Positions 18,162-28,936 of a stretch of 64,000 nt of DNA are shown piece after piece (position 1 is the stretch's first letter; each line of letters begins with the position of its first letter). Under the pieces are notes generated by a model. The model was given only the letters and a program-made list of their open reading frames with translations. It did no database searches and had not been told where the DNA came from. The position numbers and the translations under genes are program-made. This DNA is from Aurantiochytrium sp. KH105. Lineage: Eukaryota; Sar; Bigyra; Thraustochytrida; Thraustochytriidae. Location: positions 62,001 to 126,000 of the forward strand of contig BGKB01000035.1 of NCBI GenBank assembly GCA_003116975.1, given 5' to 3'.

Positions 18162-18368
18162 CTAGACGTCGTCACTGTCGGCAGAGAAAAGCTCGCTCGC
18201 GACATCCTGGTCGTCCACGTCTGCGTCCACGTCCTCGTTCTCATCCTCGTCCTCGTATATACCAGAGACTTCCTCTCCGTCACTCGTTCGAAATTTCTTT
18301 AAGTAGGCTGCGGTAATTCCAGGCACCAAATGTTCCAAGAAGAAAGTCCGTGGGGAACGTTTTCTCCT
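18162..18368 (-). other. Alternative-frame acidic C-terminal tail of the dynamin-like gene
   Basis: In the +1 frame relative to the GTPase the minus strand is open for 68 codons. The frame reads a hydrophobic helix-like piece (FLEHLVPGITAAYLKKF), then a D/E-rich tail, and stops at TAG 18162-18164. The crossover point would be near the four-base G run at plus 18352-18355. One base too many there, either in the genome or in the assembly, would join it. I see no GTAMGT donor nearby that would explain it by splicing. Confidence 0.5.
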
Positions 18369-20430
18369 TTATCGACGCCTTCAATTCCTCAGTGACACCC
18401 GCATCTATGAGTAGTCTTGCCTTTTCAAAATCCTCAGGAATTCCCTCGAGATCTTGCAGCTCCTGAAGCACGTTCACGGTACGATAAACAGCATCAATTT
18501 GGTCCTCAATAGCTTCACGCTTTCCAGCTACGCCAGGCTCCTCTTCGAGCTCGAAGTGACAATCGGTATAGAGATGTTCGACTAAAGTTTTGCTCGCGAT
18601 CGAAGCTATGATGCGCAAGTTCACAGCGTCGCACACGCTTTCACGGATCTGATCAGTCTCAATCTCGTCACTTCGGGTCATGAGAGCTTCCTCGAGCTGA
18701 TCGAATGCGCAAGAGAATGCTTTCTCGGTTATGCCCATCTTCGCTTTATCGAAACTGTCTTCCAAGGTGACTCTGATGTGCTCTCTAATGAAGGAAAATC
18801 GCCCAATTTTGAGTGGGAGCTCCGACTCGTCGAGAATTTTGCGCATCGCAAGCTTCTTGAAAGATTCCCAGTTATCACTGATGAGTTTCTTGGTGTTTCC
18901 CATGAGTTTCTCCTTGCAATCATCGAGAAGTTGTGCTCTACGCAGGAGGGGAGCGTTTCCCGGGAACTCACGAATGAAAGCGAAACAATCTCGGCTCTCG
19001 ACTTCCTGCAGCACCTCTGTAGTTGGCATATCCTTGAGAGCATTGAGTCCTCGCTGTATTTCGCTCACCATCGAATTCTGCGAAATAGCTTGGGGTGTCA
19101 TGCCAAGCCCCCAGAGGTTTCGGAAGCGGACCATGAGGACGTTTCTACAGCGCTGCAGCTCTGCAGTCACCCACTGGTCGCGCATGTACGTGCGAATCAA
19201 TTCATTCAGCGCGTGCAGAACGCCTGGCATGCCGTGTTTCGTCGTATCGTATTCTATCTCTTCCTTTGTGCATGCTTCACGCAGCGCGGTCTCCTCTCGG
19301 GTGTACGAGTTCCGCAGACTATCCCTGTCGATGTGCCTGCGCGTGTCCCGGTTCGCCACAGGAACGACAATTCTGATCGGAACATCATCTGGCATGACCG
19401 CTGGATCGCGCTCAAGACGGGCGCGGAGGTCCTCCTCGCCCCCCGATTCATCCACTCGAGTCAGCACCACAATCGATGGCTTGTTGGCTGCACGCATCAA
19501 AGGCCAAATTATGTTGTTGTTGAGCGCTTCTGAACGCGCAGAGACAACCGCAAGCACGAGGACATGTTCCTGGGCCAGCATACGTTGTGTAATGCTCGTC
19601 GTGGCCAATCTGGCATTTTCTGGAGCAGACACGATGCCAGGCAAATCGACCAGGTCGATGGTTGGCACGGAGGGAGCGCGAATCTCGATCTGAACTTCGC
19701 GATCGGTGACCACACTGCGACCTGTGTCTTCGGGATGCTCTTCGCGGATAAAGTCGCGAATAAGCTCTGCAACTTCTGCAGAGAACGGCTCATCGGTTTG
19801 ATCTCCCGTCACGCAGATCTGAGGGTCGGTTTCACGTCTAATTTCACCGTTGTCGAGGTCCTTGACGCGAATTGTGACTTGATTCTGGTGACGGCTTGTT
19901 CTCAGCATGAGTCGCACGGGCATTCGCGTGCAAAATCTGCGGTCGCGAGGGAAGATGTCCCGCATGGCAATGCGCTCGAGCGTCGAAGACTTTCCTTGGC
20001 TTTCGGCGCCGCATACAATAATCTGCGGAAGCTCTAGCTCAAAGTTGCCTTTGACTTGCAGAGCTGCCTGGAGAAGTCTGGCGTATGGAGCATCTGGAGC
20101 ACAAAGGATACCAGCGATGCCTTTCGTTGGCACGGCATGAACAAGAGCTGGCGGCGACTTGCCTGTAGACGCGTCAGAGTCTTCGCGCTCTCGCGTTTCG
20201 AATTGAGTGAGCGCAAGCCGATATCCTGTCCGACAAGGTTCTGTCTCGATGGTTCGGAATGCCTCAAAAAGACGTCTCCGCTCTTCCTCTGTGTTCGCCT
20301 CACGTAGTCGATCTTCGTATGCGGTTCGAACCAGCTCGTCGCTGAGTTCGTTCTCGTCGATCGATAGAACCTCGAATGCTGTTCTATCTACGCGAGTCCA
20401 GCCATTCTCGCTTGATGTCTCGCTCATCAT
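18280..20430 (-). CDS. Dynamin-superfamily GTPase with J-like N terminus
   Basis: The start is ATG 20430 (A at -3; a second ATG follows directly). The frame is open further upstream but without another ATG. Residues about 19-71 resemble a degenerate J domain (FEVLSI, AYEDRL, then an EAFRTIE helix and a CRTGY end) without HPD. The GTPase domain follows: G1 GAESQGKSST at 141-150, G3 DLPG at 262-265 and G4 TRVD at 324-327. These match the dynamin/Mx pattern. The remaining 380 residues are helical stalk, with no PH domain or proline-rich tail. Such proteins self-assemble and remodel membranes on GTP hydrolysis. The frame stops at 18280, but a neighbouring frame is open to 18162 with an acidic tail, so the last 25 or so residues may be wrong (see findings). 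Confidence 0.85.
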   Translation of the reverse strand: MMSETSSENGWTRVDRTAFEVLSIDENELSDELVRTAYEDRLREANTEEERRRLFEAFRTIETEPCRTGYRLALTQFETREREDSDASTGKSPPALVHAVPTKGIAGILCAPDAPYARLLQAALQVKGNFELELPQIIVCGAESQGKSSTLERIAMRDIFPRDRRFCTRMPVRLMLRTSRHQNQVTIRVKDLDNGEIRRETDPQICVTGDQTDEPFSAEVAELIRDFIREEHPEDTGRSVVTDREVQIEIRAPSVPTIDLVDLPGIVSAPENARLATTSITQRMLAQEHVLVLAVVSARSEALNNNIIWPLMRAANKPSIVVLTRVDESGGEEDLRARLERDPAVMPDDVPIRIVVPVANRDTRRHIDRDSLRNSYTREETALREACTKEEIEYDTTKHGMPGVLHALNELIRTYMRDQWVTAELQRCRNVLMVRFRNLWGLGMTPQAISQNSMVSEIQRGLNALKDMPTTEVLQEVESRDCFAFIREFPGNAPLLRRAQLLDDCKEKLMGNTKKLISDNWESFKKLAMRKILDESELPLKIGRFSFIREHIRVTLEDSFDKAKMGITEKAFSCAFDQLEEALMTRSDEIETDQIRESVCDAVNLRIIASIASKTLVEHLYTDCHFELEEEPGVAGKREAIEDQIDAVYRTVNVLQELQDLEGIPEDFEKARLLIDAGVTEELKASIKEKTFPTDFLLGTFGAWNYRSLLKEISNE

Positions 20431-21367
20431 CGTCTCGTTGACTTCTGCGCTCTTGGTTGGCTTCTTGCTGGCTAGTTCTTTTCGGGTTTGCTGGCATCGC
20501 TGTCTTTTTCTTTTTTTGCTTGCCTGATATCCGCCGAAAGATCCATCGCTACAATCGCTACAATTGCTGCAATCCAAACCTTTTGAAGTAAAGATTCCGT
20601 ATACCCTATTACACAGTAGAGTCCAATTTGAGTTTTGGTCATGGCTGATCAGGAAGAGTCCATTTTGTGTTTTGGTCACCAATGATAGAAAAACCCGACC
20701 AAAGTCAGTCAGTCATCGAACCGTGGCGAATGAATAAATGCGACAAAAGCTTTCCTGGCCTTGTCGATCTATTTGCGGAACGACTTCATGGACGAGCCTA
20801 CTTGGCATTTTGGTCACGGATGATGAAAATACTTGATCAAAGTTAGTCGTTCGGATCGACAGTCTCCATAAGGCTTTTGACCTGTTTCCAGGACAACGGA
20901 ATGGACGAGTTCATTTTCCGTCTTGGCCCCAGGATGAAGAATCCAAAGCGATGTCACGAAACTTGACGGCCAGTACAGGGGCTGTCCCTTGACTGAAGAA
21001 TGGACAGTACCCATCAACTTCTCGATGGTAGGCATAGGGGCCTAGTCCAAAGAATTCAACGTTTTTGTCCCGCCATGGTGCTTGAGGGCTCCGGCTCTCA
21101 CGCCACGCTTATCTGCAATGCCATCCACCAAGCTATGCAGTAATGAAAGGGCACAGCTGTAGAAGTGGAGTCGGCGGCCCGCTCGAAGTCGGCCAGGTGC
21201 TCCCTCTGCAATATTGTCAAGTAGAGATCTCGCTCTGGTCATTGCTGTCACCGATGTGAATATTCGTCCTTTGCCACGTCTTCCTATCACGCCATCGGCA
21301 TCTCATCTAGAGACTCTAATGCTCGGAGAAGTCGTGCACATCAAAGAAAAAAGAAATGCTTGCGTGA
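20431..21367. other. Intergenic region with degenerate tandem repeats
   Basis: This is 937 bp between two minus-strand genes. The part near 20619-20945 holds diverged repeat units (separate entry). The remainder shows no gene that I can support. Confidence 0.5.
20619..20945 (+). repeat. Degenerate tandem repeat, unit about 115-135 bp
   Basis: A motif like GAGTCCATTTTGTGTTTTGG recurs at about 20619, 20656, 20791 and 20904. At the last three it is followed by TCAC-GATGA-like sequence, AAAGTYAGTC (in two) and a GG(A)AACGGAATGGACGAG-like end. The copies are clearly diverged. The first two overlap the 5' leader of the dynamin-like gene. Confidence 0.6.
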
Positions 21368-22477
21368 TTAGTTCGCAGCCGGAGCCACCATTCTGCGACG
21401 AGCTAGAGCAGCCTGAAGCTCTGAGTTAGCGTTGCTTGCCGGCACGATCGGAGTGTTTCGCTTGTTGTTCGCCAAAATGTCACCGATGCACTGTCTCGTG
21501 CCTTTGGCGGCACGCTCCTTGACCTTATCCAGACAAAGTTGAGCCATAGAAGGCGCGGCCGAATTTGCAACAGCAGGTTTTGCTTGCGAAGGTGCATCTT
21601 TAGTGACGGCCTTGAGCTGCTTGCCCTTTTGAAGCTCGGCAAGAAGGGAGTTCATTGGAGGGCGTCCCGAAGCCGTCAAGTCTGGTTGACGAGCAGAGTC
21701 ATTGGCAGTGACGGCCTTGAGCTGCTTGCCCTTTTGAAGCTCGGCAAGAAGGGGGTTCATTGGAGGGCGTCCAGAAGCCGTCGAGTCTGGTTGACCAACA
21801 GAGTCCTTGGCAGTGAGGGCCTTGAGCTGCTTGCCCTTTTGAATCTGGCCGAGCAGGGCATTCATTGAGGGGCGTACAGGTGTCGCAGCTGCCTTTGTGG
21901 CCTCACACGCGGGCGTTGTGAGTCCCTGAGACTTCTTGAGCTCGTCAATCTGCGCCTGCTGGGTCGCGATTGTGCGGTCGCGCTCGGCAAGCTGAGTGCG
22001 CAGATTTTCTACAGTGGTCTGCAGCTCTGCAAGCTGTTGCACTTGATCCTCGTTCGTTGGCGCAGACGGCGGGCGTTCCTCGTACACGTTCTCGCGATAC
22101 TTTGCCGATGAAATCATGAGAATACCAACGAGAAGGCAAAGAGGTCCATAGGCGCCGAGAAAGACAGCCACGTAAATGGAGAGCCCGCTCTTATTCTCGG
22201 TATCCCTCTTGCTCGAAAGCATCCATGCGATGAAACTCATCATAGGATTAAGGATAAGGCCGAGAATGACACAAGGGACAATATCCAGGTTAGGAATGCC
22301 AAAGGTCTTCCATGAAAACAAAGATGATGTCACGATCGACGGCGGAAACGATGGCAATTCCGATACAAGTTCAGAGGGCAGTCCCGATGCTTTACCCGAT
22401 TCAAGGAGATCGAGGCCAGAGCTATACCAGAGTAAAAGCGTTGCTGCAGCGATCACCAAACGTTTAATTGGTCCCAT
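21368..22477 (-). CDS. Membrane protein with coiled coil and three tandem WH2 motifs
   Basis: The start is ATG 22477 (A at -3), giving 369 residues. Hydrophobic segments lie at about 6-25, 64-87 and 98-122, the first possibly a signal anchor. A coiled coil follows at about 142-184. Then come three WH2 actin-binding motifs: RPSMNALLGQIQKGKQLKAL at 202-221, and near-identical RPPMNxLLAELQKGKQLKAV at 237-256 and 272-291. The period is exactly 35 residues. A decayed fourth copy may start at 308 (APSMAQLCLDKVKERAAKG), and the C terminus has ELQAALARRR (353-362). WH2 motifs bind actin monomers, and tandem arrays nucleate filaments (Spire, Cobl, VopL types). Combination with membrane spans and a coiled coil suggests actin assembly at a membrane. 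The repeats are nearly identical at DNA level, so the array expanded recently. Confidence 0.8.
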   Translation of the reverse strand: MGPIKRLVIAAATLLLWYSSGLDLLESGKASGLPSELVSELPSFPPSIVTSSLFSWKTFGIPNLDIVPCVILGLILNPMMSFIAWMLSSKRDTENKSGLSIYVAVFLGAYGPLCLLVGILMISSAKYRENVYEERPPSAPTNEDQVQQLAELQTTVENLRTQLAERDRTIATQQAQIDELKKSQGLTTPACEATKAAATPVRPSMNALLGQIQKGKQLKALTAKDSVGQPDSTASGRPPMNPLLAELQKGKQLKAVTANDSARQPDLTASGRPPMNSLLAELQKGKQLKAVTKDAPSQAKPAVANSAAPSMAQLCLDKVKERAAKGTRQCIGDILANNKRNTPIVPASNANSELQAALARRRMVAPAAN

Positions 22478-23535
22478 CGTTTCGTGGGTCCTCCAAGACG
22501 GAGTTCTTGTGAGCACTTCGCTTCACTTCACTTCACTGCTTTCTTTCGTTTGAGGTTTGCCTGCACAAGTTTCTTGCCTTCATGCTCCCGTCCTTGCTGC
22601 TAGCCGGCCCAAGGCATGAGTCCACTTTCATCGTCTCTCCAGTCTTGTCTTCACCTTTTGGAGTTGCTTCTGCAAAACCATCGGGCAAAGTTTACAGTGA
22701 AGTCCATTTTCTCGCTTCTGGTCAGCGGTGATCATAATCCTTTTCTTGGACCACGGGCTAACGATAAGTAGGCTTGGGCTTAGGTGGACAGCTCGAGTAG
22801 TAGTAGTAGCCTGGCCACCTCGGCCGCACCTTTGGCAACTTCGAAGAATAAGTTCGCGGTGAAGTGCAAAGCCACTTTACCTGTAGGTTTCGTTGTCGTT
22901 GTCGTTGGTTGTCGTCGCTGCTATCAAATAGGCTTACTACCACGAAAACGATACCGTCTCAATTTTACAAGGTCTAAACAGGACCGCCCAACGACGGCGG
23001 ATTTTTTTGCGAAGACAGCCCATGATACCCGCCCTCAAGAACGGCGACCGCCATGTCTAGCTACCATGCAAGTTGCAAAACGTATAAAATACCACCACTG
23101 CGTCCTGCATGACGCAACCGACCCCGAGTCGCGAGCACGGGCCCCCCAGGCTCGCTGCAAGTGCCGCCGCAAGCGCGTAGCCTTTCTCTCTCCCTCCCTC
23201 TCTCCCTCCCTTTCCCCGCTCGGCTCCGCGATGGCGACGAGTAACGACGCCACGCTCGTTTGCGCCTCGGCTCCTTTGCTCGGCGCTTGTTTCCGCGGGA
23301 GGGGGAGAAGAACACTTGAAGGAGGAGGGAGAAGATAGAACCTCTAGATAGACTCGGACGCGGAGAGACAGCAGACCCGACTCGGCATCCCGCGCGCACG
23401 GGAGGCCAGCGAAGACCGAGGCGGAGCAGCAGCACGCGCGCAGCGGCGAGAGGCAGACGCCAGGCGGCCAGCCAGCCAGGCGGCCCGACAGCCAGGCAGC
23501 GAGGAAGGCGAGCGCGAGACGGGGACGCGGGCACG
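22478..23535. promoter_or_regulatory. Divergent intergenic region with a dispersed repeat copy
   Basis: This is 1.06 kb between divergent starts (WH2 protein and ceramidase). It contains a copy of the repeat described at 20619 (near 22697), a short TAG microsatellite at about 22797-22809, and a CT-rich stretch at about 23184-23216. No gene is supported. Confidence 0.5.
22697..22740 (+). repeat. Dispersed copy of the 20.6-kb repeat motif
   Basis: The stretch carries GTCCATTTT, then TGGTCA and TGATCATAA, in the same order and spacing as the copy at 20656. Confidence 0.45.
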
Positions 23536-26276: not shown

Positions 26277-27515
26277 TTAGTCATCAAAAATTGCAGCTGC
26301 GATAAGAGTAGACAAAATACTGCCTGCAGCGAGACCCGCATTGAGCCAGAGACTCATAGCCGTGGGTGAAAACCGCTCGCAGCCAATCATCATCGCAATC
26401 GTGGCGAGGTGACCATTTGTGAGCCCAAGCAGCGTGACCCAGAAAAGTGGCCAGACGTCGCCAAAGAAGGCTTGAGGGACGTGTGAAGAGCCGTCCATCC
26501 CACATGATATGATGAGTGGCACAAAGGCAAATCTCAGCAAGCCGTAAAAACATTGCATGAGAGGCCTCGAGAGACAAGACCACGGGCCGACAAGGCGACC
26601 GAGAAGGTCCCCAATATTGAACGCAAGCACGAGAAGCGGCTGGAAATAAGGCTTTGATATGCTCTCAGGACGCAGGTGCACCGTGACGCCGGGAAACACG
26701 CCAAGCGTGCAGGTGAAGCACAAGAAAACTGCCAAGGCACACAAGGATGCATGGCGCCAAGGCGGAGTCGCCTTGATTAATTCTGGGGCGGAAGCCTCTT
26801 CCGTTCTGTTACTATGCAGCTCGACCTCAAAGACACTGCGGGTTGGCCGTTCAGTGTCGTCTGCTGACGGAGGAAGGTCCTCTTCGGCGTCCGAGTTCGT
26901 GGCATGTGGAACTTGACCATACGGCGCGTCACGCTTCAATAGACGCGCAAATTGCGCGATTGAAGCGGCGACCACAGCTGCAGTAATAATCAAGTAGATG
27001 CACCCCACGCGCGCAGGTTGGAATCCGCCGGGTACGAGCAGAAAAATGACGATCGAGGACAAGAGCCCTGCAACAGCCTGGCCCGCCATGATTGCTTGCG
27101 TTGTTTTCCCGCTCACATCGTGCTTAGCTGAAAAGCGAAAGGTGCCACTTTGAAGCGACGCGGTGAAGCCGCCCAACGCAAGTAAGCAAAGTCCTACGAG
27201 ATAGTAGAGCGCTGTGGCACGATCATAGGCTGTGGCCACGACCAAGGCCAATACGAGGGTGACCAGGGCTGTCATGCTACCGGCAAGGACAACAATGCGC
27301 GAGGGCTCGCGCAGAATTGCCCCAGTTCGTTCGCGAGCTCTTTCCACGGCCAAGACGGCAAAGTTGCTCACAAGGTATGTTGTGGAGAAGGCCCCAGCGT
27401 AGGTTGACGCCCGCGATGACCCGGCAAAGGCCTCTTCCAAGAGTCCAAGTAGATTCAAGGTCGAGCTCCAAGGCAGCAGCATCGCCAGGCCGATCAAGAG
27501 CATCGTGGCCCGCAT
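26277..27515 (-). CDS. Equilibrative nucleoside transporter (SLC29/ENT family)
   Basis: The start is ATG 27515 (A at -3); an upstream GTG in frame is disregarded. The 412 residues contain about 11 hydrophobic spans. TM1 ends in LLPWSSTLN, as in ENT proteins. A long polar loop of about 70 residues lies between spans 6 and 7, and GLTNGHLATIAMM in the last third matches the conserved ENT GLTNG region. ENTs move nucleosides or nucleobases across plasma or internal membranes down their gradient. Substrate choice cannot be read from the sequence. Uridine phosphorylase lies next on the same strand, though 1.4 kb away. Confidence 0.88.
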   Translation of the reverse strand: MRATMLLIGLAMLLPWSSTLNLLGLLEEAFAGSSRASTYAGAFSTTYLVSNFAVLAVERARERTGAILREPSRIVVLAGSMTALVTLVLALVVATAYDRATALYYLVGLCLLALGGFTASLQSGTFRFSAKHDVSGKTTQAIMAGQAVAGLLSSIVIFLLVPGGFQPARVGCIYLIITAAVVAASIAQFARLLKRDAPYGQVPHATNSDAEEDLPPSADDTERPTRSVFEVELHSNRTEEASAPELIKATPPWRHASLCALAVFLCFTCTLGVFPGVTVHLRPESISKPYFQPLLVLAFNIGDLLGRLVGPWSCLSRPLMQCFYGLLRFAFVPLIISCGMDGSSHVPQAFFGDVWPLFWVTLLGLTNGHLATIAMMIGCERFSPTAMSLWLNAGLAAGSILSTLIAAAIFDD

Positions 27516-27717
27516 CCTGCGCTGTGCTGCGTTTTGCTGCACAACACTGGCGCTCTTGCGCGCGCACGCGCGCTGACGCGCTGAGAAACGGAGCCGGTTT
27601 GATCCTGACGAATCGTCGGCAAAAAGAAATACGTTACGTTCCGTTTCGGTGTCGCCGCGGTTTCACGCTATCCAAACATCTACTAAAGTGGGCCTCTAAA
27701 ATATCCCGATAATTTGT

Positions 27718-27736
27718 AAGTCAAACAATTGTTTGA
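27718..27736. repeat. Palindrome copy 1
   Basis: TCAAACAATTGTTTGA at 27721-27736 is a perfect 16-bp palindrome preceded by AAG. It is shared with the second copy 63 bp downstream. Confidence 0.9.
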
Positions 27737-27779
27737 ATTAAGCTATAAATTTTAACAGGTTAAAAGGAGACTGAGTGCT

Positions 27780-27803
27780 TAAGTCAAACAATTGTTTGAC
27801 TTA
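27780..27803. repeat. Palindrome copy 2 (24-bp perfect)
   Basis: Bases 27780-27803 are a perfect 24-bp inverted repeat with the same 16-bp core (27784-27799) as copy 1. The core is centred on CAATTG. Confidence 0.9.
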
Positions 27804-28893
27804 GGTCACCCTTTTCTTGTGTCTGTCTCTCGTGCTGCAGACGTCGGTCCACCTTAAGACCTGGTTTACTGGGTCCCCTGACACGCAGGCATTACGCTTG
27901 CAACGTCCCTCCAAGTAAGGTGGTTTGAAGCTCGTGAATTTCGGTGATTCGTGATCTTCAGTGATGGCACCTAACCACCAAACCGGCACGCGGAGGCAAA
28001 GAGCGAACGTTGTTGCAGTGCACGTGAGAAGGGTGGGTCACAGAGGTCGCGCATGGTGAGGTCCCTATGTCTGATGCCTCAAGTCATCAGCCTGGCCACC
28101 AGCCTGGCCACGACGTGAGCAGTACGACCGAGAGGCAACCTGATCATCGTCCCGAGACACGTTGAGCCAGGTCTCACGTTAGCGCGCAAGCACAACTTTG
28201 GGGGCGCGAGTTAAACAGTGCAGTGCATGCCACAAGTTTGGCCACCTACGGGTTACGAGTAGGGACTGCGATTTTTATTAGCATAGGTCTCGAAACGCAA
28301 GCTCGTCGCATGGTACCTTGCAAGATCCTGGTCGCTCGGCGCTGCAAAACAGCTTTCAGAGTAGCTCAAGTGCAACAGCCAGGAGCACTTCGACAAATGA
28401 TTTTTCGACGCGTGCCCCATGCTCGTCCCAGAACAGCTCGCAAAGTGACTTTTCCCTTGCTTCGCAAAGTGCCTCACAGAGCAACTCGAGCGAAACGGGC
28501 GAAAACACAAGATCGCCTTCCGGGCAAAGCTCTGCTCGTTCCAAGGCATTTCATGCAGCTTGGCAATAACTCACAAACATTGGATCCAGAGCTTTTGTCT
28601 CGCGAAGAAGCCAGCGAGGTTTGTGGCATAAATGCAGGTGCTCGACAGCATAATTTTCGGGCTTATTACTGACGTGTTTATCAATTCGCTGGTTGTCTGG
28701 CGGATGTGCAAGGTTTATGACCCCTTCATGTGGGTTGACTTGCGAAAATTCCTCACATTGTGCTCGCGAAGAGTTCGTCTGACCGACTTCCTTGAAAAGG
28801 TTGTCCTCGGTCTTCTCGCACACGCTGAGAAATTAAAATCTCGCGACATGGCGGTGCCGGAGCCTGACGTGGGAGCTTCGACGACGTTCTCAG

Positions 28894-28894
28894 N
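28894..28894. other. Undetermined base (N)
   Basis: This is the only N in the window. It sits 11 bp before a 16-bp exact tandem duplication, so local assembly may be uncertain. Confidence 0.95.
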
Positions 28895-28904
28895 TATCTA
28901 CTTG

Positions 28905-28936
28905 CCTACGGTTGCTCCTGCCTACGGTTGCTCCTG
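28905..28936 (+). repeat. 16-bp exact tandem duplication
   Basis: CCTACGGTTGCTCCTG is repeated head to tail, directly upstream of the 3' end of the uridine phosphorylase gene. Confidence 0.9.

Follow-up and report, generated by a model that had tools for sequence, protein, structure and literature searches.

Does the open reading frame (ORF) at 21368..22477 encode an actin-binding protein that carries its own membrane anchor, and how might such a protein act on actin? The frame comprises 369 codons on the minus strand of the window (the whole 64,000-nucleotide stretch of DNA analyzed in this study), with its ATG at 22477 and its stop codon at 21368-21370, and contains hydrophobic segments, a predicted coiled coil, three WH2 motifs, and a conserved tail. 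The initial annotation had interpreted this combination as a possible membrane-anchored actin-assembly factor. In our view, a membrane-anchored recruiter of actin monomers is the best explanation, with a slightly better than even chance of being correct.

A second copy of the gene was identified on contig C161 (the window contig being C35). The comparison of window 3-39668 with C161:65001-105000, covering 40 kb, revealed collinear, gapped blocks of 92.7-97.9% identity, the largest gap being an unaligned stretch of approximately 1.2 kb at 27706-28918 of the window. Because the second copy is collinear and the assembly size is 76.0 Mb, the assembly seems to carry two haplotypes of approximately 38 Mb, and the C35 and C161 copies look like haplotypes of one gene. 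The two proteins are identical at 336 of 369 residues, with no indels. A dynamin-family GTPase gene (70.3 bits; 18283-20682, minus) adjoins the ORF downstream on the same strand, and the window yielded no matches to Rfam families or in a tRNA scan.

The initial annotation had reported three near-identical WH2 motifs at an exact 35-residue period, and our analysis confirmed their starts at residues 202, 237, and 272, with linkers of 15 residues. In Pfam, motif 1 (residues 202-221; 21815..21874, minus strand, as are all features of the ORF) scored 22.3 bits alone, motif 2 (residues 237-256; 21710..21769) scored 12.9 bits alone, and motif 3 (residues 272-291; 21605..21664), the core of which is the same as that of motif 2, had no match alone. 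The cores read LLGQIQKGKQLK, LLAELQKGKQLK, and LLAELQKGKQLK, respectively. All three fit LL..[LI]Q.G..L[KRN], a pattern written after the motifs had been seen, and when residues 137-369 were shuffled 200,000 times, at least one such core arose in 6 cases. Tandem Repeats Finder identified a 105-bp unit in the array DNA, present in 2.6 copies with 90% matches (score 437). The two haplotypes differ in repeats 2 and 3 and show no difference in repeat 1, a distribution consistent with tandem duplication or conversion. In having several WH2 motifs in tandem, here three, the protein resembles Spire-type nucleators.

Profile searches supported the WH2 assignment. The window copy scored 23.7 bits against the Pfam WH2 profile (PF02205), above the gathering cut-off of 23.1, and the C161 copy scored 33.9 bits. 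A six-frame scan of the genome for WH2 at E<=0.001, in which 15 candidates were scored, yielded four matches that included the C161 copy and not the window copy; the window copy is therefore borderline by profile alone. When a 25-residue piece containing motif 1 was compared with PDB chains, it matched N-WASP (3m3n, E 0.00022), Spire (3mn7, 0.012), and WIP (2a41, 0.14). The likeness to these proteins concerns the WH2 motif sequence; unlike them, the window protein has no WASP-family or Spire domain besides WH2 among its Pfam matches and no acidic tail. Compared by eye with the pattern given in section 11 of PMC3298513, all three window repeats contain L-K and the three hydrophobic positions of the helix. 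The repeats of the C161 copy retain these features as well, which counts in favor of a membrane-anchored recruiter. Counting against it, LKAL or LKAV stands here in place of LKK(V/T), without the second basic residue. Relative to L-[KR]-[KR]-[VTA] in the same source, again by eye, this residue is Ala in all three repeats, and repeat 1 further deviates in having Gly at the third helix position and Leu at the last position.

The element at approximately residue 308, previously taken for a decayed fourth WH2 motif, had no Pfam WH2 match and aligned with the tail of a long coiled-coil paralog beyond that protein's two WH2 motifs. We rejected it as a WH2 motif and describe it as a helical tail (residues 308-341; 21455..21556) of the family shared with that paralog; a low-confidence structure model places a helix at 311-341. 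It is followed by the C-terminal basic helix SELQAALARRRMV (residues 352-364; 21386..21424), the first ten residues of which are identical in the paralog. The WASP-family C region is described in section 11 of PMC3298513 as three large hydrophobic residues, with three residues between one and the next, followed by a basic doublet or triplet and a hydrophobic residue. Compared by eye, SELQAALARRRMV fits this description in part, with two of the three hydrophobic residues (L354 and L358), then RRR, and then MV. An acidic C-terminus with Trp or another aromatic residue, of the Arp2/3 type, is absent; residues 306-369 have a net charge of +6 and end in RRRMVAPAAN. The Pfam scan of this protein revealed no other actin-assembly domain above the cut-off.

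The coiled coil proposed in the initial annotation was also recovered, at residues 142-184 (21926..22054), and is probably an oligomerization element. The level of hydrophobic residues at heptad positions a and d of residues 142-183 was reached in 3 of 20,000 shuffles, and the segment aligns with the paralog. The AlphaFold2 single-sequence model contains a helix at 142-184, with block pLDDT values of 78, 92, 90, and 86 over residues 141-180 and 63 over residues 181-190; for the whole model, the mean pLDDT was 54.2 and the pTM was 0.23.

On the basis of the constrained and uninterrupted frame, the WH2 motifs, the hydrophobic segments, the coil prediction, and the paralogy, we propose that the N-terminal hydrophobic region would anchor the protein in a membrane and that the coiled coil would assemble two or more chains. 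With three WH2 motifs on each chain, such an assembly would offer at least six to actin monomers on the cytosolic side of the membrane, and the monomers loaded there could feed or seed filament assembly. Oligomerization, cytosolic orientation, actin binding, any nucleation, the membrane involved, and the direction of the fusion discussed below are inferred. That the array would nucleate actin is less certain than that it would recruit monomers, the safer claim, because the three WH2 motifs are near-identical and there is no acidic Arp2/3-type tail.

A rival explanation is that the protein is a membrane decoy or sequestering protein, the WH2 motifs of which would bind G-actin in an array that does not nucleate. 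The near identity of the three motifs, the 15-residue linkers, and the lack of an acidic Arp2/3 region or of another actin-assembly domain above the Pfam cut-off would suit such a protein, and we give it an appreciable chance, somewhat short of even. However, through its coiled coil the protein would bring at least six WH2 motifs together, and several nucleators work by such clustering. The decoy and the recruiter overlap as explanations, nucleation being left open in the latter, and their probabilities do not sum to one. Rather doubtful, in our judgment, is the more ambitious proposal of a multi-span eukaryotic actin-assembly factor, in which spans, a coil, and an expanded cytosolic WH2 array would seed actin at the membrane without a recruited activator.

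The genome contained four further matches, originating from two loci: an 888-codon frame on C147 (L021:3243-5906, minus) and an 805-codon frame on C96 (L022:4072-6486, plus). These long coiled-coil WH2 paralogs are mutually alike and have the same neighboring frame. They have in common with the window gene the end of the coil, the first WH2 motif, the helical tail, and the basic C-terminus, and the matched stretches are 47-52% identical. By an eye count, motif 1 and the first WH2 motif of the paralog agree at 17 of 22 residues, which counts in favor of a membrane-anchored recruiter; the LNAV of the paralog, at the position of LKAL in motif 1, counts against it. The C147 frame, which was used for the span and Pfam scans, has a long coiled coil, no hydrophobic span in the 888 codons, weak Tcp10_C matches (27.4 bits versus a cut-off of 36), and one WH2 stretch, a second being recognized by eye. 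None of the 3 pattern matches in viral contigs and none of the 41 in bacterial and archaeal contigs, where protist genomes are not expected, was confirmed as a relative; this negative result in viral and prokaryotic collections is a further point against the recruiter.

Because the tail, the coil, and the first WH2 motif are shared with a span-free paralog, the window gene probably derives from a soluble coiled-coil WH2 protein, with a membrane anchor and an expanded array. We infer that the C-terminal part of such a long soluble protein (coil, WH2, and tail) was joined to a membrane-inserting N-terminus, in that direction, and the WH2 array would have grown by tandem duplication after the fusion.

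The initial annotation had counted three hydrophobic spans. Three segments are present, and segments 2 and 3 are likely membrane spans, but segment 1 is marginal. Segment 1 (residues 7-25; 22403..22459; Kyte-Doolittle value, KD, 1.70) had an apparent free energy of +0.61 in the window copy (4-25) and +1.14 in the C161 copy (3-21), and may act as a signal anchor, be cleaved off as a signal peptide, or do neither. The values were +0.05 for segment 2 (residues 66-87; 22217..22282; KD 2.15 at 66-84) and -0.78 for segment 3 (residues 101-123; 22109..22177; KD 2.27 at 104-122), and +0.22 and -0.61 for the respective segments of the C161 copy; helices were placed at 67-89 and 99-132 in the low-confidence model. 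With segment 3 below 0 and segment 2 near it, at least one inserting segment is predicted, as expected of an integral membrane protein. The scale, the parameters of which were entered by hand, recovered all four spans of a tetraspanin, 9 of the 11 spans that we take the neighboring ENT transporter to have, and none in the 888-codon paralog frame.

At E<=1, residues 1-143 matched only the C35 and C161 copies in the genome. An origin of the membrane part from the neighboring ENT nucleoside transporter (26280-27662, minus) was rejected, residues 1-140 scoring 35 against a mean of 33.4 in 300 shuffles (s.d. 4.8, maximum 53). A DUF7321 match over residues 69-160, at 17.1 bits in the window copy and 18.2 bits in the C161 copy versus a cut-off of 27 bits, was taken as chance.

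The initial annotation had stated that a WH2 array on the outer side of the membrane would speak against its proposal. We scored both orientations by counting K and R near the membrane, with assumed propensities. With three spans, the score was tied for the window copy (0.20 for either orientation) and favored C-outside for the C161 copy (1.60 versus -1.23 for C-inside). With two spans, it favored C-inside for the window copy (0.61 versus -0.33 for C-outside) and C-outside for the C161 copy (0.61 versus -0.33 for C-inside). The tetraspanin and ENT controls were both oriented as we expected from their topologies. The proposal of a membrane-anchored actin factor was partly supported: a single ORF, probably coding, unites hydrophobic spans with WH2 motifs, and an outer-side placement of the WH2 array keeps some probability.

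For the C161 copy, the scores under either span count would suit a coil and WH2 array on the lumenal or outer side, with segment 1 as a signal anchor or cleaved peptide and segments 2 and 3 as a hairpin. The array would then miss cytosolic actin and be a repetitive surface or lumenal stretch. The basic N-terminus, the acidic loop at 26-65 (2 K, 4 D or E), and the loop at 85-103 with 3 K or R are consistent with this arrangement. We nevertheless consider it unlikely: the WH2 pattern persists in every repeat of either copy and is common to the span-free paralog, and residues 191-369 of the window copy contain only three Cys, with no clear disulfide pattern. Because the actin-contact pattern of WH2 is kept and is shared with a paralog that has no spans, we favor the cytosolic side and judge it moderately more likely than not that the WH2 motifs face the cytosol.

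To return to the recruiter, its support includes the constraint on the frame. Codons 1-130 exhibited 13 synonymous differences over 95.3 sites and 8 nonsynonymous differences over 294.7 sites between the copies (dN 0.028, dS 0.151, dN/dS 0.18), distributed as 6, 3, and 12 over codon positions 1, 2, and 3. These codons look to be under purifying selection, and because of this dN/dS translation of the membrane part is probable. The Fisher test yielded p 1.8e-4 for codons 1-130 and p 0.015 for codons 191-369, with sites treated as independent and counts that are small. The dN/dS was 0.34 for the whole ORF, 0.575 for the coil, 0.415 for the WH2 array, and 0.439 for the C-terminal part; the lesser constraint on the coil, array, and tail than on the membrane part counts against a membrane-anchored recruiter. 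Gap columns between the copies numbered 0 of 1110 in the ORF, 43 of 843 upstream, and 3 of 649 in downstream noncoding DNA, and the scarcity of gaps in the latter also counts against it. The frame is uninterrupted in both copies, neither of which contains a stop codon or indel.

That the gene is a nearly neutral chimera heading for pseudogene status appears quite improbable. The ORF, with 66 differences in 1110 bases (94% identity), evolves faster than the neighboring ceramidase frame (97.3-100% in five complete 150-base bins, the sixth being spoilt by the alignment end), and the upstream noncoding bin at 22562-22711 is as similar between copies as the ORF itself (94.7%). The dN/dS of the WH2 array would also fit. 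Such a chimera is hard to reconcile with the intact frame in both copies, with the dN/dS of the whole ORF and of the membrane part, and with the identity of approximately 50% to the paralog, which suggests an old split. A mis-modelled ORF, with the membrane and WH2 parts on separate transcripts or split by splicing, would agree with the span-free paralog and is highly improbable given the single uninterrupted frame in both copies, the codon-position bias in codons 1-130, and the conserved ATG, upstream of which the frame has diverged.

The initial annotation knew of no nucleator with its own membrane spans in this order. The order of spans, coil, and WH2 indeed differs from that of Spire1C, but Spire1C is a membrane-embedded tandem-WH2 precedent, and the nearest one: tandem WH2 motifs and a membrane-associating segment of its own occur in one protein (PMC4574297). 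According to that source, the authors suggest that ExonC is embedded in the mitochondrial outer membrane as a transmembrane segment or hairpin, the data suggest that the WH2 motifs face the cytoplasm, and Spire1C promotes actin assembly on mitochondria. Spire is described there as having four WH2 motifs and a KIND domain, with ExonC located after both. In the window protein, by contrast, the hydrophobic segments come first and are followed by the coiled coil, and KIND was not among the 17 families in a Pfam scan to E 10, the filters of which drop most matches above approximately 0.1.

Other known systems resemble the window protein in part. VopL and VopF combine tandem WH2 motifs with a dimerizing part and differ in being bacterial effectors with a VCD, for which the account in PMC9569871, as far as it extends, mentions no membrane span. 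BimA of Burkholderia, a membrane-anchored bacterial analogue likened here by its description rather than by sequence, is a bacterial trimeric autotransporter (PMC9569871). The WAML proteins of Entamoeba carry a membrane-active domain and WH2 in one protein, with a membrane-deforming IMD domain and a VCA region instead of membrane spans (PMC3298513). As far as these systems are described in the cited sources, none of them has the order of spans, coil, and WH2.

Other WH2 loci were observed in the genome. At L023:3779-5250 (G000:C205), a tetraspanin (Pfam 45.9 bits) that has a Gly-rich tail is followed by a 212-base N-run and then by a WH2 motif (30.1 bits); this is possibly a tetraspanin-WH2 fusion, with a frame that is unreadable across the N-run. 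The loci L003:1-1815 (G000:C16) and L002:1252-3066 (G000:C41) encode a PDZ domain, a proline-rich stretch, two CCDC53 stretches, a WH2 motif (27.4 bits), and an acidic tail that carries Trp close to its end, the Pfam scan having been run on the C16 frame. This domain set resembles that of a VCA-type Arp2/3 activator, with an unusual composition. A search of the open literature found no report of WH2 in thraustochytrids, and titles and abstract starts contained neither a membrane-anchored or transmembrane WH2 nucleator of this kind nor a WH2-tetraspanin fusion.

WH2 proteins that build actin mostly depend on adaptors, on lipids, or on lipid-binding domains to reach membranes. A single chain with both spans and WH2 motifs would amount to a minimal and testable device for making actin at a membrane. 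Should the multi-span factor and the C205 tetraspanin-WH2 protein both be real, they would indicate a lineage that builds membrane-anchored WH2 proteins, and such proteins might drive actin-filled membrane extensions. The ectoplasmic network consists of plasma-membrane extensions with an actin cytoskeleton, and proteins specific to it are still sought, as stated in PMC12221091. If the host is a labyrinthulomycete, the window protein would be a candidate for a component of this network.
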